64,000 bases of DNA from assembly GCF_026015625.1 (NCBI RefSeq), contig NZ_JAPDVG010000001.1, forward strand, positions 620,001 through 684,000, given 5' to 3'. Below are positions 1,078-11,289 of this stretch, piece by piece. This DNA is from Segatella copri. Lineage in GTDB: Bacteria > Bacteroidota > Bacteroidia > Bacteroidales > Bacteroidaceae. The position numbers were made by a program, and so were the translations under genes. Within the stretch, counting starts at the first letter, position 1. Each line of letters starts with the position of its first letter. The notes under the pieces were generated by a model that did no database searches, was not told the origin of the DNA, and worked only from the letters and a program-made list of their open reading frames with translations.

Positions 1078-1469
1078 AGGGTCAACAACGTAGAGATCTT
1101 GTACACTACAGGATAGAAAAAGCTTATAAGAGTTTTGATGAGGCTAAGGGTGTGGCAAAATTGAAGTATTGGAATTTGACGGGAAATCGTTTGTATTATA
1201 CTGTATTCCATATGGCTTCTGCTTTGTTACTTGACAAGGGCTTTACTGCAAAGACTCATGCCAGTGTAATACATTTAGTTGGAGAGAAATTTATTGCTAC
1301 AGGTTTGTTGGATCGCACTTATGGAAAGTTGTTCTCTCGTCTATATGAACTTCGGCAGTCTGGTGATTATGATGATACCTTTGATGCTACAGAAGAAGAG
1401 GTCTTGCCGTATTTTGAGAAAGTAGAGAATTTTATCAAAGATATGGAAGCGTTGATTACTCATAAGTAA
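1071..1469 (+). CDS. HEPN-domain protein (toxin-like partner of MNT)
   Basis: A 132-residue, mostly helical protein of the HEPN/UPF0332 type. Its start overlaps the MNT stop, so the two are translationally coupled. HEPN RNases usually carry an R-x4-6-H motif. Here the matching position reads RQSGDY (residues 95-100), with Tyr where His would be expected, so RNase activity cannot be assumed. It could be a toxin of a non-canonical subgroup or a catalytically dead binding partner. The pairing with MNT is seen directly; the toxin-antitoxin role is inferred from family knowledge. Confidence 0.8.
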   Translation: MLEGQQRRDLVHYRIEKAYKSFDEAKGVAKLKYWNLTGNRLYYTVFHMASALLLDKGFTAKTHASVIHLVGEKFIATGLLDRTYGKLFSRLYELRQSGDYDDTFDATEEEVLPYFEKVENFIKDMEALITHK

Positions 1470-1498
1470 CATGTGTAAATATTTAAAATGATAGTATT

Positions 1499-1663: not shown

Positions 1664-1789
1664 ATGAATGCAACATTACAAAAGAAAAAGTTACAATCAG
1701 AGTTAGATAAGGCTATTCTCAATGTAAAGGAGGGGAATGTCAAGAACTTCGATACATTGGAGGATATGATGAACTATCTGGAAGCTTAG
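1664..1789 (+). CDS. Small antitoxin-like ORF (41 aa)
   Basis: A 41-residue frame (MNATLQKKKLQSEL... ending MMNYLEA), 30 bp after the previous small ORF. It is lysine-rich at the N-terminus and acidic at the C-terminus, resembling the short helical antitoxins or antitoxin tails found in Bacteroidota, but no family motif can be named. No complete toxin gene follows. A short in-frame start at 1792 runs into GC-rich palindromic repeats, so a partner may have been truncated there. Function unknown. Confidence 0.4.
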   Translation: MNATLQKKKLQSELDKAILNVKEGNVKNFDTLEDMMNYLEA

Positions 1790-1847
1790 ACATGAGTATA
1801 AAATGCCTGGTTAAGAAGAAAATCATTGAACTTTTTCATGTGGTTCA

Positions 1848-1935
1848 AGCACGGGCTGAAGGCCCAAAAGCTCCTAGCCCAGGGCAACACCCTGGGTATT
1901 AAGATGTTGTATCCCTGCGCCCTGTAAGGGCAAAA
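1848..1935. repeat. Cluster of GC-rich short palindromes (REP-like)
   Basis: Three consecutive short palindromes occur in otherwise AT-rich DNA: GGGCTGAAGGCCC, CCCAGGGCAACACCCTGGG and GCCCTGTAAGGGC. The GC content and palindrome pattern resemble dispersed REP-type elements of Bacteroidota. They follow directly after the small antitoxin-like gene and may have interrupted a downstream reading frame. Confidence 0.55.
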
Positions 1936-1997
1936 GCCTTGAATATATGCTGCTTTATAACCAATTTTATTGAGATTTGCAAGAAACTATTTCTCTT

Positions 1998-2179
1998 TTA
2001 AATCATTTGCCGACTTTCGAAATCAGCTTTGATTTCATCTAATAGTGGATTTCTGTTTTAGCATAAATGTCAATGCCATCATATTGTTTTGCTCTTTCGA
2101 GCATTTCCTCTTTATGTTTTAGGAGTTGTTTAAACTTTCTGATGGTTTCCTCCTTTGTATTGTTCTTTGTTGCTTGCAT
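1998..2179 (-). pseudogene. Short coiled-coil-like ORF with a probable frameshift
   Basis: On the minus strand an ATG at 2179, preceded by an AAAAAGGAGG Shine-Dalgarno-like sequence, opens a 46-codon frame (start MQATKNNTKEETIRK, stop at 2039-2041). The adjacent frame continues the same charged, helical character (LLDEIKADFESRQMI) to a stop at 1998-2000. A one-base shift near 2040 would join the two into a ~60-residue protein. I do not recognise a family. It could instead be an intact 46-residue gene covering 2039-2179. Confidence 0.35.
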
Positions 2180-2267
2180 AATAACCTCCTTTTTAATGTT
2201 ATTGTTATTAATTTGGTGGCAAAGATAAGAAAAGTAAATGAGATATGCAAGAAAAAAGACCTAAAAT

Positions 2268-2298
2268 TTTGTGAAGCCAATTCTTTTTCGTACTTTTG
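2268..2298 (+). promoter_or_regulatory. Bacteroidota promoter (TTTG-N19-TACTTTTG)
   Basis: TTTG at 2268-2271 and TACTTTTG at 2291-2298 are separated by 19 nt, matching the Bacteroidota -33/-7 consensus. Transcription should begin near 2305. The first long gene downstream starts at 2774, so either a stand-alone RNA or a ~460-nt leader of the methyltransferase operon is made. Confidence 0.7.
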
Positions 2299-2304
2299 CA
2301 GTTG

Positions 2305-2645
2305 TCTTGTTGTGGATGGCTGGCGATGAGTCGCTGGCTAGGTAAAAATCCATGGCTTGGCCTATCATAATTAAGAAAGACGTTCTCTACGTTTTCTTCT
2401 GACCTTTCGAAACCTCGCAAATTTCAAATGGGAATCAGATGAAGACAGCAGTGGGCGTCTACCCACTGTGTATATACACATGGCATAGGTGTGCCCCTTC
2501 GTCTGAAGGGGTACGCTCTGTGCTATCATATATATACCCGTTAGGCGTAGGCATCTGTTGCTTCTTTTCCTTGTTCCCTGGGTTCATGCGAGGTTCCTGA
2601 AAGGCAAGGATTATGCGAGTGATAGATTCCCTACGCCTTCCTTTT
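2305..2645 (+). ncRNA. Candidate structured RNA or leader upstream of the methyltransferase operon
   Basis: Behind a consensus promoter the sequence folds into nested helices: AACCTCGCA 2411-2419 with TGCGAGGTT 2587-2595, GGGAA 2430-2434 with TTCCC 2574-2578, and CAGATG 2436-2441 with CATCTG 2552-2557. Inside these lie two hairpins, CAGTGGG/CCCACTG (2449-2468) and CCCCTTC/GAAGGGG (2494-2511). The ~185-nt rod with internal bulges resembles 6S-type RNA in outline, but I cannot confirm that family. GGCGTAG 2544-2550 could also pair with CTACGCC 2631-2637, competing or forming a pseudoknot. The ends are estimates. It contains no convincing gene. Confidence 0.5.
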
Positions 2646-2773
2646 TGATAGCTAATCAGTTATCCTATTCCTTATCTTGCGATGAGGCTGGACTAGAATC
2701 AAAATAATCTTTTAAAATCAGATGGTTTCTGCTTTCGGGAATCGGTGGAGTAATAGGATGGCAAGGCTTTGCT

Positions 2774-5551
2774 ATGCTCCCATCGGCAACGGAAGTTATG
2801 GCAAAGAAACTGCAACTCAGCTATAAGGAAATCGAATCCCGATTGGAATCGTTTAAAACTAAAGTGGTGCCAGCCTCTGAGGTTGGCTATGAGATACTGA
2901 AGGCTTTTGGTAAAAGCGAAAAGGATGTGTCGAGATACAAGGAAGGAAAGGGTGTCTTGAAGACATTCGACGGCTTGCTTATCAAAGGCTTGTTCTGCTA
3001 TCAGGCTGTAGATACTTTGCATCTTACCACCAGGTTGGAGGCATTGAAGACCGATGCTCAGGTAAAGAAGGCTGCACCAAAGATTATTGCGGTGAGCGAT
3101 GGTGAAACCCTCCTTGCTTATGATACTCGTGAGAATGATACTTACGAGCAGAAACTTGTCAAGATGCACAGCGACTTTGGCTTCTTCTATCCTTTGATGA
3201 ACGTAGAGCGAGTACACACTACGGCAGAAAACCCTGCCGATGTGAAGGCTGCTGAGAAACTTGCCAAACTGCATGATGAGATTCGTGCTTATAACGAATA
3301 TAATAGTGATGACGACTTGCACGACCTCAATATCTTCATTACCCGCCTGCTCTTCTGTTTCTTTGCCGAAGACACAGGTATCTTTGCCGAAAATCTCTTT
3401 ACCAACTTTATCAAGCAATTTACCAAGGAAGATGGTTCCGATCTCGGCGAGATGCTAGGTCAGGCATTCCAGGTGATGAATGTGCCAAACAAGGAGCGTT
3501 CGGAAGAACTTACCAAGGAAATCAATCAGTTTCCTTACGTGAATGGCGGTCTTTTTGCCTCTGACATTCCTATCCCAAAGATGGGTTATAAGGCTAGAAA
3601 GATTGTCATCGAATGCGGAGACTTGGATTGGAAGGACATCAATCCGGATATTTTCGGTAGTATGATTCAGGCGGTGGTGAATCCTGATGTGCGTGCCAAG
3701 GAGGGTATGCATTACACCAGTGTGCCTAATATCATGAAGGTTATCAATCCGCTCTTTATGGATGATTTGCGTGCCGAATACAAGAAGTTGACGGACTTTT
3801 ACGATCTGAAGAAAAACCTGTATGACATGAGCGTATTGTCCATCAATCAGTTTGTGGCGGAATGCAAGCCTATTGTCAGGGGGTGCGACCGCTTGCTGTT
3901 GCGTATGAGTAAGATGAAGTTCTTCGATCCAGCGTGTGGAAGTGGCAACTTCTTGATTATCACCTATAAGCAGTTGCGCTTATTGGAGATGGATATCTTG
4001 CATCTTCGCAAGAAGTGCCAGCCTGAGCTGATGATAGACTTCATAGATGGTTCTTGCATCCACTTGGATCAATTCTACGGAATAGAGCTTCTCGACTTCC
4101 CTCATGAGGTAGCCATGCTTTCCCTTTGGCTTGCCGAGCATCAGATGAACAACAAGTTTCACGCCGATTTCGGTGTGAATGTTGCTGCCTTGCCTTTGCA
4201 TAATATCAACCAGTTAAAATGTGGTAATGCCTGTAGAATGGATTGGGAGGTAGTATGCCCACATACCAAGGATGAAGAAGTGTTTGTATTTGGTAATCCG
4301 CCGTATTTGGGAACAAAATGGCAAACGATTAGTCAAAAAGAAGATGTAGATTTTGTAATGCCGGATAACAAATGTCGTAGAACTTTAGATTATATTTCTT
4401 GTTGGTTTGTTCTTGGAGCTAAATACGTGAAAGGCTCAAAAGCTAAATATGCTTTTGTTAGTACAAATTCTATATGTCAAGGAGAACAAGTGGCTGCTCT
4501 TTGGCCGCAAATTTCAAAGGATGATGTTTGTATTGATTTTTGTTATCTGCCATTTAAATGGAGTAATAATGCAAAATATAATGCTGGAGTAACATGTGTT
4601 ATTATTAGTTTAGGTTGGAATTCAACTAAAAATAAGTACATTTATGCGGATAAATGTAAAAAAGTAAATAACATTAATTATTATTTGTTAGATGCCCCTA
4701 ATGTTATAGTAGAACATCGTACTAGTCCGCTTTCTGAATTGCCAATTATGCGTAAAGGAAGTCAGCCTACTGATGGAGGCTTTTTACTTATGGATAAAGA
4801 AGAACGTAATGAATTTGTATTGGAAAACCAAAAGTTGGCTCCATATATAAGACAATATATGGGAGCCGATGATTTGATAAATGGTAAGTTGCGTTATTGT
4901 TTATGGCTAAAAGAATGTCCAGAAGATATAATGTCATCTTGTGATAAACTTATTGTTCGATTAAAGAATGTGGCAAATATTCGAAGTAATAGTACTAAGG
5001 AACTTACAAGAAAATGGGCTTTAAAGCCACATTTATTTACTGAGGATAGGCAACCTGATATGGAATACTTGATGTTACCAGTAGTTTCTTCAGAAAAAAG
5101 GCAATATATTCCAATGGCTTATATTGATTCTACAGTGATAGCTAATACAAATTCCCAAATGATACCTGATGCGCCGATTTATGTATTTGGAGTGCTTACT
5201 TCATTGATTCATTCAGTTTGGATGAAGGCTGTTTGTGGAAGATTGGAAATGCGTTTTGCTTATTCCGCAAGTGTTGTTTACAACACTTTCCCCTTCCCAT
5301 CCATCTCCGACACAAAGAAGTCCGAGATAGAAGAGGCGGCAACGAATGTGCTTCTGGCTCGTGAAAACTATCCAGAGAAGACGCTTGCTGATCTTTACGA
5401 CCCGGAAAAGATGCCGGAGGATTTGCGTGCAGCACATGAGGAACTGGATGCCATCGTAGAAAGCTGCTATCCTGATGCTCCGTTCCCAAATGATGAGGCT
5501 CGATTGGAATGCCTCTTCAAACTCTATGAGAAAATGACAGCTAACAAGTAA
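2774..5551 (+). CDS. MmeI-like class I N6-adenine DNA methyltransferase
   Basis: A 925-residue DNA methyltransferase. The SAM-binding motif I is FFDPACGSGNF (residues 383-393) and the catalytic motif IV is NPPY (508-511), typical of N6-adenine enzymes. The helicase-spacer-like region (~200-330, ending in VRAKEGMHYTS), the recognition region (~650-835) and the C-terminal LYDPEKMPEDLRAAH segment follow the MmeI/type IIL layout. The N-terminal PD-(D/E)xK nuclease of MmeI is not recognisable, so cleavage may be supplied by the downstream GIY-YIG protein. An alternative start is the ATG at 2798 (MAKKLQLS), which may be the true one. About 4290-5275 is strikingly AT-rich compared with both ends of the gene, suggesting exchange of the specificity region. 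It is the first gene of a four-gene operon. Confidence 0.9.
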   Translation: MLPSATEVMAKKLQLSYKEIESRLESFKTKVVPASEVGYEILKAFGKSEKDVSRYKEGKGVLKTFDGLLIKGLFCYQAVDTLHLTTRLEALKTDAQVKKAAPKIIAVSDGETLLAYDTRENDTYEQKLVKMHSDFGFFYPLMNVERVHTTAENPADVKAAEKLAKLHDEIRAYNEYNSDDDLHDLNIFITRLLFCFFAEDTGIFAENLFTNFIKQFTKEDGSDLGEMLGQAFQVMNVPNKERSEELTKEINQFPYVNGGLFASDIPIPKMGYKARKIVIECGDLDWKDINPDIFGSMIQAVVNPDVRAKEGMHYTSVPNIMKVINPLFMDDLRAEYKKLTDFYDLKKNLYDMSVLSINQFVAECKPIVRGCDRLLLRMSKMKFFDPACGSGNFLIITYKQLRLLEMDILHLRKKCQPELMIDFIDGSCIHLDQFYGIELLDFPHEVAMLSLWLAEHQMNNKFHADFGVNVAALPLHNINQLKCGNACRMDWEVVCPHTKDEEVFVFGNPPYLGTKWQTISQKEDVDFVMPDNKCRRTLDYISCWFVLGAKYVKGSKAKYAFVSTNSICQGEQVAALWPQISKDDVCIDFCYLPFKWSNNAKYNAGVTCVIISLGWNSTKNKYIYADKCKKVNNINYYLLDAPNVIVEHRTSPLSELPIMRKGSQPTDGGFLLMDKEERNEFVLENQKLAPYIRQYMGADDLINGKLRYCLWLKECPEDIMSSCDKLIVRLKNVANIRSNSTKELTRKWALKPHLFTEDRQPDMEYLMLPVVSSEKRQYIPMAYIDSTVIANTNSQMIPDAPIYVFGVLTSLIHSVWMKAVCGRLEMRFAYSASVVYNTFPFPSISDTKKSEIEEAATNVLLARENYPEKTLADLYDPEKMPEDLRAAHEELDAIVESCYPDAPFPNDEARLECLFKLYEKMTANK

Positions 5552-5566
5552 TAAATTGAATGGCTT

Positions 5567-7615
5567 ATGGACAAGATAAATGATAATATCGTTGATATTT
5601 CGTATCAGCAAACGGGTAAATCGAGTAATACGAATGAACTCGGTATGCGAGAGATGCAAGCCAAGGCTTACGAAGCCCGCAACCATCGCTTTCTGCTTAT
5701 CAAGGCGCCACCGGCATCTGGCAAGAGTCGCGCCTTGATGTTCATCGCCCTGGATAAGCTGAAGAATCAGGGCATCAAGAAGGTAGTAGTGGCTGTACCG
5801 GAAAAGAGTATCGGCCGCTCTTTCCAAAACACCGACCTGATGAAGTATGGCTTCTTCGCCGATTGGAGGGTGGCGCAACAGTATAATCTTTGCGATAATA
5901 ATCTTTGCGATTCTACCGACGAGAAAGTTAAGGCGGTACGCTTTAAAAATTTCTTCCATCAATATAAAAACAATATCCTGGTTTGCGCCCATGCCACACT
6001 AAGAAACGGCATGAAGGAAATAAGTGACGAGGAGTTTAATGATTGCCTCTTGGCGATAGATGAGTTCCATCATACTAGTGCTGATGTGAACAGCGGACTG
6101 GGCGATATTGTGCGCCGGGTGATGAATAATTCCACCGGTCATATTGTTGCCATGACGGGCAGTTACTTCCGTGGCGATGGCGTTCCGGTATTGAGGGCAG
6201 AGGATGAGGCCCGTTTCTTCCCAGTAACCTACAACTATTATCAGCAACTCAACGGTTATCGCTATCTCAAGGACCTCGTCCTGGGCTATCACTTCTATCA
6301 CGGCAGTTATCTCGACCATATCGCCGAGGTGCTGGATACTACCAAGAAGACCATCATTCATATTCCGAGTGTCAACTCCCGTGCATCCAGCGGTTTGGGC
6401 AAATATACGGAGGTGGATGAAATCATCAAGATTATCGGTAAGGTAGAGGAACGGGATTACAACAATGGCGGCATCTATCACATCAGAACAAAGGACGGCA
6501 GACTGCTGAAGGTTGCCGATCTGGTGGAAGACCACGCCGAGACTCGCAACCTGGTGCAGGGATATTTGCAGCGGATAAAGAAGCGTGATGATGTAGATAT
6601 TATCATCGCTCTGGGTACTGCCAAGGAAGGTTTCGACTGGCAATGGTGTGAGGAATGTCTGACCATCGGCGTGCGTGGTTCGCTGACCGAAGTGGTGCAG
6701 ATTATCGGAAGATGTACCCGTGATTGCGAAGGCAAGGAGACGGCAAAGTTTGTGAACATGATAGGAATGCCTGATGCCAATCAGCCCGATGTGAAGGTGG
6801 CGGTGAACGACTTTCTGAAAGCCATTACGGCTTCGCTTCTGATGGAGCAGGTGATGGCGCCTAGTTGGCATTTCAAGACGGTGAAGGATGTGGATAGTGA
6901 TGAGGGTAGTCCGCTGGATGCCCGTACCCTGGTGATAGAGGGCTTGAAACCTTTGTCGAGCGAGAAGACGAAGATGATTGTAGAGGAGCAGTTGGATGAT
7001 TTGAAGGCTTCTATCTTACAAGACGAACTGGTGGTGAAAGCCATCAGCGGAAGTACTACGGCTGAAACCATCACCAAAGCGCTCATTCCGAAAGTGATTC
7101 GTGAAAAGTATCCGGATTTGAGCGAGGACGAAGTGGAAGAAGTTCGCCAGCGCCTGCTGCTTGATACCCTAGTAAAAGGTGGCGAAGTGGTGGATGATAA
7201 GGGAAATCCTATCGATTTCGATGCTTCGAAGAACGACGAGGAGAAGGAGTCAGAAGGCAATCGCCTTATCAAGTTGGCAAATCGTATGATCAATATCAAC
7301 CAGTTGAATATCAATCTGATTGATTCCATCAATCCGTTCCAGCGTGCTTACGAGATGCTTTCGAAGAATATCGACAAATCGACCTTGAAGATTATCCAAG
7401 ACACGATAGCGGAACAGAAGTTTGATATGACCCTGGAACAAGCCATCATCCTCTTCAAGGGGCCGTACAGAAAATGGGTGGAAGAGCACAATGAACAACG
7501 ACCAGACATCAATGACCCAGACCCAAAGGTGAGAGAACTGGCAGCTGCCTTCCAGAAAATCAAGAACTTGAAAATAAGAAAAATGAGAGGCTTGGAATAT
7601 GAGCCGGAAAAGTAA
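5567..7615 (+). CDS. DEAD/DEAH-type helicase of the restriction-modification-like operon
   Basis: A 682-residue superfamily 2 helicase, 15 bp after the methyltransferase. Walker A reads APPASGKS (residues 47-54), motif II is DEFH (165-168), motif III is MTGSYFRGDG, and motifs V-VI are GTAKEGFDWQ and QIIGRCTR (378-385). The 250-residue C-terminal part is helical and charged with no domain I can name. The intact ATPase motifs suggest DNA translocation or remodelling, as in the R subunits of type I and III restriction systems, but no nuclease motif is seen here. The tight spacing places it in one transcript with its neighbours. Confidence 0.9.
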   Translation: MDKINDNIVDISYQQTGKSSNTNELGMREMQAKAYEARNHRFLLIKAPPASGKSRALMFIALDKLKNQGIKKVVVAVPEKSIGRSFQNTDLMKYGFFADWRVAQQYNLCDNNLCDSTDEKVKAVRFKNFFHQYKNNILVCAHATLRNGMKEISDEEFNDCLLAIDEFHHTSADVNSGLGDIVRRVMNNSTGHIVAMTGSYFRGDGVPVLRAEDEARFFPVTYNYYQQLNGYRYLKDLVLGYHFYHGSYLDHIAEVLDTTKKTIIHIPSVNSRASSGLGKYTEVDEIIKIIGKVEERDYNNGGIYHIRTKDGRLLKVADLVEDHAETRNLVQGYLQRIKKRDDVDIIIALGTAKEGFDWQWCEECLTIGVRGSLTEVVQIIGRCTRDCEGKETAKFVNMIGMPDANQPDVKVAVNDFLKAITASLLMEQVMAPSWHFKTVKDVDSDEGSPLDARTLVIEGLKPLSSEKTKMIVEEQLDDLKASILQDELVVKAISGSTTAETITKALIPKVIREKYPDLSEDEVEEVRQRLLLDTLVKGGEVVDDKGNPIDFDASKNDEEKESEGNRLIKLANRMININQLNINLIDSINPFQRAYEMLSKNIDKSTLKIIQDTIAEQKFDMTLEQAIILFKGPYRKWVEEHNEQRPDINDPDPKVRELAAAFQKIKNLKIRKMRGLEYEPEK

Positions 7616-7660
7616 TTTGGGCATTTATAATTCAACATTTAACATTCAACATTTCAAAAG

Positions 7661-7921
7661 ATGGATTGGCCAGAAGAATTATTAGAGATATTTGATGACC
7701 CCTTGTTGGCGGATGTACGTCCGAAACCGAAGGCGCCGACGCCCGATGACAGGCTGGCACAGAAATTGCTTGAAATCAACAAGTGGGTGGCAGAGCATGG
7801 TAGCGAACCTACAGCAGATGGTGGCTTGAAAGAAAAGTTGCTTGCTGCATCGCTCAAGGCTCTGCGGACCAAGGCAACAGATAGCCTCAGACAGTATGAT
7901 GAGTATCATCTGTTGGGATAG
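7661..7921 (+). CDS. Small operon protein (86 aa), N-terminal-module homologue of the next gene
   Basis: An 86-residue acidic protein beginning MDWPEELLEIFDDPLL. The opening matches the start of the following nuclease (MDIDKELEDIFSDPLM), so the two share a short N-terminal module. The rest (RLAQKLLEINKWVAEHG, then LKALRTKATDSLRQYDEYHLLG) looks like a helical adaptor. Related GIY-YIG proteins appear to carry such a segment fused, so this may be a split-off domain, probably mediating complex assembly. It lies 45 bp after the helicase and 33 bp before the nuclease. Function unknown. Confidence 0.75.
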   Translation: MDWPEELLEIFDDPLLADVRPKPKAPTPDDRLAQKLLEINKWVAEHGSEPTADGGLKEKLLAASLKALRTKATDSLRQYDEYHLLG

Positions 7922-7954
7922 GCTATAGTTTTTCACCTTATTATATATAGTGAT

Positions 7955-9187
7955 ATGGATATTGATAAAGAATTAGAAGATATATTCAGCGACCCTTTGA
8001 TGGATGTTTCCTATCAGGAGGCAAAACTTTTCGATGTGCCTGCCGACATGAAAGGCGTGATGGCTCAGAAGAAGGATGTGCCCGACCATGTGGCGCAAAG
8101 AAAACTGTGTGAGAATTTCGCACAGTTTAAGCTGCTCTTCGAACAGGTGCATCAGGATTTGAAGACCGGGAAGCGACAGTTGCAGAGAATCTCGAAGACG
8201 ACGAGCTTATTGGCTGGACGCTATTATCTTGTAGATGGTCAGATGGTTTTGTTATATGAGATTATTGAGAAGAAAAAGGGTACTAATGGTTTGCCCGATG
8301 GCAGAACCCGCTGTATCTATGAAAATGGTACGGAGTCGGATATCTATCTCCAGACACTTCGCAAGAATGTGGTGGCAAGTGGTTATGCCATCACCGAAAT
8401 TTTGGAGGAAACAGATGCCCATTTCTTCAATCCTGAGGATGTGAAGCAGGAAGACCAGGTGACGGGTTATATCTACGTGCTTCGTTCGAAATCTGAGAAT
8501 CCGGAAATTCGTAACATCAAGAATCTATATAAAATAGGTTTCTCTACGAATCGGGTAGAGGAACGTGTGGCAAATGCCGAGCACGAGCCTACTTATCTGA
8601 TGGCACCTGTAGAGATAGTAAGCACTTACAAGATAGTGAACATGCACTCCCAGAAGTTTGAGGACCTGGTGCATCAGGTGTTGCAGACGGTGAACTTCCG
8701 TTTCAGGGTGGCTGATGATAAGGGAGAGATGCATGAGGCTACGGAATGGTATCAGGTTCCGCTGGAAATCATCGACAGTATCATTCAGAAAATCATGAAT
8801 GGCACTATCATCTACTTTTCCTACAATAAGGAACAGCAATGTCTGGAGCAGCGAATAGAGAAAAAGCCATCGCAGTTAAATCTGTCGGGCTTGAAGGTTT
8901 TGACGCTGATTATTGAGAAACAGTATTTCGAGGAGATTGTATCTGGTGTGAAGACCGAGGAGTACCGTTCGCTGAAGCAGACCACGCTTAACAAATATAC
9001 TTATATTGATGAGGCTGATGGCAAGCGTTATCTCCGTCGTTTTGATGCGATAAGGTTTTATGTGGGTTATCATTCGGATAGGGATAGTGCCGTGGTTCAG
9101 GTATTGGATACTACCTATGAGGATGGCTTGGTAACTTATCATCTCGGAAAGGTATTGGAGGTGATAAGAGGAAAGGAAAATAAATAA
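7955..9187 (+). CDS. GIY-YIG (T5orf172-type) nuclease with C-terminal ASCH-like domain
   Basis: A 410-residue protein. The N-terminal ~100 residues contain a conserved-looking VAQRKLCENFAQF segment. The GIY-YIG core is GYIYVL (171-176) and YKIGFS (192-197), followed by RVANAEHEP and an acidic HEATEW element, matching the T5orf172/MUG113 branch. The last ~100 residues (LKVLTLIIEKQYFEEIVSGVKTEEYR in outline) resemble an ASCH/PUA-like fold that may bind RNA or modified bases. It is the last gene of the operon, and I infer it is the nuclease for the nuclease-less methyltransferase and helicase. The domain calls rest on motifs read by eye. Confidence 0.85.
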   Translation: MDIDKELEDIFSDPLMDVSYQEAKLFDVPADMKGVMAQKKDVPDHVAQRKLCENFAQFKLLFEQVHQDLKTGKRQLQRISKTTSLLAGRYYLVDGQMVLLYEIIEKKKGTNGLPDGRTRCIYENGTESDIYLQTLRKNVVASGYAITEILEETDAHFFNPEDVKQEDQVTGYIYVLRSKSENPEIRNIKNLYKIGFSTNRVEERVANAEHEPTYLMAPVEIVSTYKIVNMHSQKFEDLVHQVLQTVNFRFRVADDKGEMHEATEWYQVPLEIIDSIIQKIMNGTIIYFSYNKEQQCLEQRIEKKPSQLNLSGLKVLTLIIEKQYFEEIVSGVKTEEYRSLKQTTLNKYTYIDEADGKRYLRRFDAIRFYVGYHSDRDSAVVQVLDTTYEDGLVTYHLGKVLEVIRGKENK

Positions 9188-9204
9188 AACATAGAAATAG
9201 GGTA

Positions 9205-9654: not shown

Positions 9655-9984
9655 TTATAGTTTTCTTTTGAATTGTCTAATCAGATATCTGGGGCTTCTT
9701 CTCATATCCCATAAATCTACGAAAATGACGAGGTCGTTGGCTTCATCGTATCGATAGATAATCTTCCAATTTTCCTTGATGATAGCACTATGGTAAGGGC
9801 GGTGGAATCGCTTAAGCAATGGCTCTTTGGGTGAAGAAAGAGGATGTTTGCAAAGTCTGTTTATTATTGCTTGCAAGCTTTCGTCAAATCTTTGAACGCA
9901 AAGTCGACCAAAGTTTTGATAACTATAGTCGGTTGTTTCTTTATAAATTTGAAGAAAGCTATTGCGTAGTGTTACTTTAGCCAT
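9655..9984 (-). CDS. ParE/RelE-superfamily toxin
   Basis: A 109-residue protein with the ParE/RelE toxin pattern: an N-terminal helical pair, a KHPLSSPKEP loop, then the strands ENWKIIYRYDEANDLVIFVDLWDMRRSP that form the sheet of these toxins. It overlaps the antitoxin gene by 13 bp, and a second antitoxin-like gene follows at once. RelE members cleave ribosome-bound mRNA and ParE members target gyrase; the sequence does not decide which. The conserved C-terminal RRSPRYL is typical of the ParE-like group. Confidence 0.8.
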   Translation of the reverse strand: MAKVTLRNSFLQIYKETTDYSYQNFGRLCVQRFDESLQAIINRLCKHPLSSPKEPLLKRFHRPYHSAIIKENWKIIYRYDEANDLVIFVDLWDMRRSPRYLIRQFKRKL

Positions 9985-10479: not shown

Positions 10480-11289
10480 TTAGTGGTGTTTCAAATCACA
10501 CGCAGCCTGCTCATAGTCGATGAGATGATCGATGGTAGGGTGGTCGCCGCAGATTTCGCAGGATGCACGCTTCTTTACCTTGATGGTGCGGAAGTTCATC
10601 GTCTTGGCATCGAAGGTGAGCAATCGGTCGGTGAGCAGTTCGCCCACACCGAGGAAGTACTTCAACGCCTCGGCAGCCTGGATGGTTCCGAGCATACCAG
10701 CGATGGCACCAAGGACTCCTGCCTGGCTACTGGTAGGAACAGTGCCTGCTGGAGGTGGCTCCTTGAAGAAACAACGGTAACAAGCCGTGCCTGGAAGATG
10801 GGTGAAGGTCTGCCCCTGGAATCTCAGGATGCCGCCATGCGAGAATGCCTTGCCCAGTCGCACACAGGCATCATTGATGAGGAACTTCACCGGGAAGTTG
10901 TCGGTGCAATCAATGACGAAATCCCATGGCTTGATGATTTCCTCGGCATTGTCTGAGGCGAGGAAGGTATGGTAGGTTGTTACCTCCACATCAGGATTGA
11001 TGGCAATCATCTTCTCCTTGGCGCTTTCCACCTTAGGGGTGTTCAAGTCCTTTGTCTGGTGGATGACCTGTCGTTGCAGGTTGCTGAGGTCAACCACATC
11101 GGCATCCACGATACCGATATGTCCCACGCCAGCCGCAGCGAGGTAGAGGGCAACTGGGGAACCCAATCCTCCGGCACCAATGATGAGCACCTTGGCATTG
11201 AGGAGCTTTTCCTGCCCCTCGAGGCCTACATCCTGAAGGAGGATGTGGCGGCTGTATCTTTCTATCTGTTCTTCTGTTAAATCTATCAT
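10480..11289 (-). CDS. MoeB/ThiF/HesA-family adenylyltransferase
   Basis: A 269-residue E1-like enzyme that adenylates the C-terminus of a ubiquitin-like sulfur carrier (ThiS or MoaD) for thiamine or molybdopterin synthesis. It opens EEQIERYSRHILLQDVG and carries the nucleotide-binding GAGGLGSP (38-45), the DLSNLQRQ element and the D-C-T-D-N-F segment. Two CxxC pairs (CYRC and CEIC) form the zinc site. No carrier gene is next to it, so ThiF versus MoeB cannot be decided. A terminator follows the stop. Length is normal for the family. Confidence 0.9.
   Translation of the reverse strand: MIDLTEEQIERYSRHILLQDVGLEGQEKLLNAKVLIIGAGGLGSPVALYLAAAGVGHIGIVDADVVDLSNLQRQVIHQTKDLNTPKVESAKEKMIAINPDVEVTTYHTFLASDNAEEIIKPWDFVIDCTDNFPVKFLINDACVRLGKAFSHGGILRFQGQTFTHLPGTACYRCFFKEPPPAGTVPTSSQAGVLGAIAGMLGTIQAAEALKYFLGVGELLTDRLLTFDAKTMNFRTIKVKKRASCEICGDHPTIDHLIDYEQAACDLKHH

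Follow-up and report, generated by a model that had tools for sequence, protein, structure and literature searches.

A Bacteroidales variant of the DnmA-YeeB-YeeC cluster in Segatella copri, with an ASCH-type YeeC and a split-off N-terminal module

Four open reading frames (ORFs) on the plus strand of a 64,000-nucleotide stretch of the Segatella copri genome (the window; GCF_026015625.1, NZ_JAPDVG010000001.1, positions 620,001-684,000; all coordinates are window positions) constitute a Bacteroidales variant of the DnmA-YeeB-YeeC cluster. The ORFs lie between 2774 and 9187, separated by 15, 45 and 33 bp, and encode an MmeI-like DNA methyltransferase (MTase), a superfamily 2 (SF2) helicase, a small protein of 86 amino acids (aa) and a GIY-YIG nuclease. 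This bears out the operon described in an earlier reading of this DNA (the original prediction), as well as its proposal that a nuclease-less MmeI-type MTase, a helicase and a nuclease sit on separate chains. DnmA (YeeA) of Bacillus subtilis is among the MmeI homologues that lack an endonuclease motif and have yeeB- and yeeC-like genes next to them, a set for which Morgan et al. 2009 are credited, as they are for the suggestion of a Type I-like system (PMC7261158). An SF2 helicase domain is described for YeeB and a T5orf172 domain for YeeC; the gene order is conserved and defence families are enriched nearby (PMC9973331). Every testable feature of the window operon agrees with this cluster, and its membership is close to certain. 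The original prediction had matched the set to no named system and took an exact match to a described one as grounds against it; the gene set does match DnmA-YeeB-YeeC as these two papers present it. The window operon shares with the clusters of B. subtilis and Vibrio crassostreae an MmeI-like N6-adenine MTase without nuclease motif, an SF2 helicase and a T5orf172/GIY-YIG protein, in the same order. While the family is known, we count the operon as a new variant because its YeeC carries an ASCH fusion and because the first N-terminal module of YeeC is split off as a separate gene between the helicase and the nuclease genes.

The MTase (for which an ATG at 2798 is an alternative start) has all five MmeI Pfam domains (MmeI_N, hel, Mtase, TRD and C) and aligns to the MmeI structure 5hr4 with an E value of 5e-178; the S-adenosylmethionine (SAM)-binding and NPPY motifs and the MmeI-type downstream regions claimed for it are present. 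The claim that no N-terminal nuclease is recognisable holds only in part, since an MmeI_N remnant is found (E 1.1e-16) and it is the catalytic residues that are gone. In MmeI these are D70, E80 and K82 (PMC4833311), and by alignment the window MTase has K in the E80 column and L in the K82 column. We aligned 98 MTase rows (96 distinct) from helicase-bearing loci, excluding operon MTases shorter than 850 aa, with 18 solo MTases of MmeI type from genomes in the same family as the window. The latter were fetched out of 30 listed places, of which two further regions were operon copies; an MTase counts as solo here if the fetched stretch of 3.5-4.4 kb holds no helicase match, and the genome that supplied one of them (G504) has the operon elsewhere. 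The E column holds E in 18/18 solo and 1/98 operon rows, the K column K in 18/18 and 37/98, and the D column D in 18/18 and 18/98. Both catalytic E and K are thus present in all 18 solo homologues, whereas E or D together with K occurs in none of the 98 operon rows. Because the solo MTases retain these residues and the operon rows do not, loss of the nuclease accompanies the helicase and GIY-YIG genes. The methylation motifs are mostly kept, DPACG[ST]GNF in 96/98 and NPP[YFW] in 95/98 operon MTases. Pattern matching for the nuclease motif was dropped in favour of aligned columns, after the loose pattern D-x(6-14)-[DE]-x-K was found somewhere in the stretch of 55/98 operon MTases and a stricter one in 3/98.

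Among the four proteins only the MTase was matched strongly by PADLOC models, namely by the Type IIG model (residues 31-924, E 2e-295). That label implies a nuclease that the MTase has already lost, and the lost motif excludes an active Type IIL/IIG enzyme despite the match. The protein shares with Type IIL MmeI the five-domain architecture, including the recognition and C-terminal domains; unlike MmeI it has no E-x-K nuclease motif, and cleavage must come from other proteins.

The candidate for cleavage is the last protein, for which the predicted GIY-YIG nuclease domain is confirmed by a T5orf172 match above the Pfam cut-off (E 1.3e-15). The conserved G, Y, K-x-G, R and E residues of GIY-YIG domains are catalytic, and G171, Y174, K193, G195, R204, E236 and H240 are identical in 125/125 rows (121 distinct loci; L003 and L028 are one locus, and YeeC ORFs outside 340-520 aa were excluded). 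The proposed ASCH-like C-terminus falls below the Pfam cut-off (E 0.054), yet ASCH is the best fold match of the predicted model and the motif GxKxxExR is present. ASCH structures filled the match list of that fold search, and the GIY-YIG and most N-terminal parts thus yielded nothing in it. We hypothesize that the ASCH domain senses a modified base. Ordinary YeeC has two N-terminal modules, the first of them fused; the 86-aa ORF corresponds to this first module, which is a separate ORF in 25 of the 27 distinct ASCH-type loci and fused in the other two (L003 = L028, and L032). The "split adaptor" of the original prediction is therefore right as to the split, but the small ORF is not an unrelated adaptor. 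A conserved stop-codon read-through linking the small ORF and the nuclease was also rejected, only 6/27 split loci having the two ORFs in frame and adjacent.

The helicase, too, is as predicted: it has ResIII/DEAD Pfam matches, a Walker A motif and the motif DEFHH, it belongs to a conserved family, and its predicted core resembles SF2 folds of the RIG-I/FANCM/RadD type. Type III Res subunits combine a helicase with a fused PD-(D/E)xK nuclease; here the ResIII helicase match was found and no nuclease family, though parts of residues 408-599 are modelled with low confidence. Searches of PDB sequences with the helicase and with the nuclease gave no useful result.

Conservation of the gene neighbourhood, proposed as a check on the operon, is borne out. 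Relatives of the helicase were searched in a GTDB-based genome collection, viral contigs, plasmids and phages, giving at least 549 in the first, 43 in viral contigs, 263 plasmid records (153 of them covering 80% of the query or more, and 118 being of conjugative type) and, in phages, two partial matches covering 23%. Among the best 80 of the at least 549 genome relatives, the MTase lies upstream of the helicase in 67/68 loci with at least 3.5 kb of flank, the exception being L028, and a GIY-YIG gene lies downstream in 78/78 loci with at least 1.3 kb. Viral contigs with sufficient flank have the MTase in 27/27 and the GIY-YIG gene in 38/41, no GIY-YIG match being found in L103, L132 and L133 despite 1.3 kb downstream. 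The loci come from 12 named phyla, with 54 from Bacteroidota, a count that leans towards this phylum through the query and the choice of the best 80. The trio is also annotated, in this order, on a plasmid of Niallia (Bacillaceae), and the B. subtilis control genome was positive for MmeI_TRD and T5orf172, a comparison at domain level. The helicase is carried by 10/60 genomes of the window's genus, 10/151 of its family and 10/395 of its phylum, a sporadic occurrence as expected for mobile defence genes. Some loci depart from the usual layout: in L066, with a short upstream flank, the MTase lies downstream of the nuclease gene; in L028 (= L003), a Bacteroides ihuae copy with an ASCH-type nuclease, visual inspection suggests an AlbA_2-like ORF upstream of the helicase; and in genome G504 one 824-aa open frame (L171:1432-3903) matches helicase and YeeC parts.

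The nearest genome compared, G001, carries a sibling operon with a different recognition domain. The DNA of the two is 92% identical over 1710-4603 and 95% over 5261-9189, with no blastn match between; protein identity of the MTases falls to 20-40% over residues 609-818, and GC content to 31-35%, against about 42-47% around. The segment without match is the target-recognition domain. Because residues 519-608 have also diverged (47-80% identity), the exchange may extend into the methyltransferase domain. In MmeI, E806-R808 is exclusive for C:G at position 6 and K806-D808 for G:C, and an R751-D773 pair is reported for G:C at position 3 (PMC4833311). At position 6, alignment to MmeI gives E-R for the window and K-D for G001; at position 3 it gives R751-D773 for G001 and, for the window, a V-T pair with no assigned specificity. 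From the position-6 determinants and the position-3 pair of G001, we infer that the window MTase would methylate NNNNAC and that of G001 NNGNAG. Such a replacement of the recognition domain would count for a restriction machine.

A further indication of the role of DnmA comes from loci in which it has degenerated. NPP[YFW] is missing from three of the 98 operon MTases: L087 (Anaerovirgula) has NPSY with an intact SAM motif, and two contigs of the viral collection, L104 and L119, have NTQY and a SAM motif that has decayed to NPDSSSGDC. All three proteins are full length with a recognition domain. Two tandem C5-cytosine MTase ORFs lie just upstream in L087, and a fused double C5-cytosine MTase lies just after YeeC, on the opposite strand, in L104 and L119 (L087:4488-8927; L104:6855-14421; L119:7368-15018). 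Over 100 deduplicated loci, a C5 homologue occurs within 6 kb of the helicase in 3/3 degenerate and 1/97 intact loci (Fisher p 2.5e-5), although the degenerate loci are not independent (L104 and L119 are related at 62%) and the single intact exception is a weak C5 match. No further locus of this kind was found among the viral contigs searched. Among the best 120 of 3035 proteins related to the L087 DnmA, motif IV is degenerate in 100 (NPSY 81, NPTY 11, others 8) and is NPPY in 20. The NPSY proteins are probably inactive as methyltransferases, and the degenerate loci are most simply read as having kept DnmA for recognition. We therefore favour a Type I-like model for the window operon.

The positions of the features described above are given in Table 1. 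Upstream of the operon lies a toxin-antitoxin-like pair of the MNT (nucleotidyltransferase)-HEPN kind (739-1469); G001 lacks window positions 1079-1484, nearly all of the HEPN gene, and the DNA to the left is 97% identical. A ParE-type toxin gene lies downstream (9655-9984, minus strand). Another genome, G582, has no helicase, and its match to the window begins only at 10491; the operon therefore seems to lie in a variable region that adjoins shared genes, an island whose border is only roughly placed. Between MTase and helicase genes the spacing exceeds 500 bp in 50/109 related loci, and in 40 loci this space holds a same-strand ORF of 140 aa or more; Pfam matches among 56 such ORFs include AlbA_2 (6), RhuM (5), YhcG/DUF1016 (3), Fic (3) and Bro-N (3). 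This accessory slot, filled in up to 40 of the 109 loci and empty in the window, was also seen with HATPase_c_4, zeta toxin and AbiJ (examples are L083:8231-9877 and L072:9024-10007).

Table 1. Features of the S. copri operon, in window positions
Feature	Position	Strand	Basis
DnmA-like MmeI-family N6-adenine DNA methyltransferase, 925 aa, nuclease motif lost	2774..5551	+	Pfam, MmeI alignment
SAM-binding motif DPACGSGNF, residues 385-393	3926..3952	+	
Catalytic motif NPPY, residues 508-511	4295..4306	+	
Exchanged target-recognition segment, residues about 611-829	4604..5260	+	No blastn match to G001; GC profile
YeeB-like SF2 helicase/translocase, 682 aa	5567..7615	+	ResIII/DEAD Pfam
Walker A, APPASGKS	5705..5728	+	
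Motif II, DEFHH	6059..6073	+	
86-aa ORF, split-off first N-terminal module of YeeC	7661..7921	+	Comparison with ordinary YeeC
YeeC-like nuclease: second N-terminal module, GIY-YIG (T5orf172) and C-terminal ASCH, 410 aa	7955..9187	+	
GIY-YIG/T5orf172 domain, residues 171-280	8465..8794	+	Pfam T5orf172
ASCH domain, about residues 311-404, motif GxKxxExR	8885..9166	+	Fold match of model

We consider it fairly probable that the operon is a Type I-like restriction-modification (R-M) machine split over separate proteins. DnmA would recognise an asymmetric site and methylate an adenine there, which would protect the host; where the site is unmethylated, the nuclease-dead DnmA would act as recognition subunit and load YeeB, a putative double-stranded DNA translocase, and YeeC, the GIY-YIG nuclease, and cutting would follow loading. 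In the window variant the first N-terminal module of YeeC is a separate small protein, and the added ASCH domain may detect whether the site is methylated, or detect other modifications of bases. The logic of modification and recognition, translocase and nuclease is that of Type I R-M, but HsdS, HsdM and HsdR are not among the four proteins, the MTase itself carries the recognition and the nuclease is a separate GIY-YIG protein. The MTase is also related to the DrmMI and PglX models of DISARM and BREX, systems that likewise have helicase-type partners, whereas the window has a GIY-YIG nuclease. At E values up to 1 the four proteins match no model of DrmA or DrmB (DUF1998), and they give no match to BrxC/PglY or PglZ beyond weak PglX matches to the MTase, which rules out their membership of either system; eight neighbouring genes were scanned, by Pfam only. 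A more elaborate version would give DnmA the part of specificity subunit in a distributed restriction machine, with modification chemistry and state-sensing as separable modules: the Bacteroidales ASCH reader would check the methyl mark made by DnmA before cutting and, in another branch, paired C5 MTases would supply the self-mark after DnmA has lost methylation. This version is tentative and on the whole rather unlikely.

Several observations weigh against a restriction machine. The 86-aa ORF matches no known family in Pfam and defence model searches, and neither does the C-terminus of the helicase in model searches; L028 keeps helicase and nuclease with no MTase match in 10 kb upstream; and the argument from degenerate DnmA draws on three loci, of which two are related at 62%. 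Susceptibility of B. subtilis to the three phages tested was the same after deletion of yeeB or of yeeC singly (PMC9973331), plasmid transformation was unchanged after deletion of dnmA, and phage genomes show no depletion of the DnmA motif; the authors call the cluster an R-M relic (PMC9973331, PMC7261158). Deletion of the dnmA and yeeB homologues in V. crassostreae, on the other hand, made it more sensitive to certain phage subclades but not to the rest (cited in PMC9973331). The published reading for B. subtilis would make only DnmA useful, its methylation altering gene expression, with YeeB and YeeC as decaying passengers. For the window we regard this as unlikely, as the catalytic motifs of YeeB and YeeC are kept in the window and its relatives, the two are co-inherited across phyla and the helicase matches listed for the genus have no internal stops. 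A modification-dependent (Type IV-like) or mixed activity, in which ASCH recognises a phage base modification and licenses cutting by YeeC beside ordinary restriction, seems to us quite improbable. A role in recombination has been proposed for T5orf172 proteins of jumbo phages (PMC7824862) and many copies of the cluster are on plasmids; nevertheless, the tight linkage to a sequence-specific MTase and the change of its recognition domain suit restriction better, and a role of helicase and nuclease in recombination or plasmid maintenance instead is very doubtful.

The DnmA-YeeB-YeeC family is widespread, with many members on conjugative plasmids, its mechanism is poorly understood and the published phage tests conflict. 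The window offers an intact ASCH-bearing copy that has a sibling operon whose predicted specificity differs, which makes the Type I-like model directly testable. The same applies to the loci with degenerate DnmA, which may offer a natural separation of recognition from methylation.

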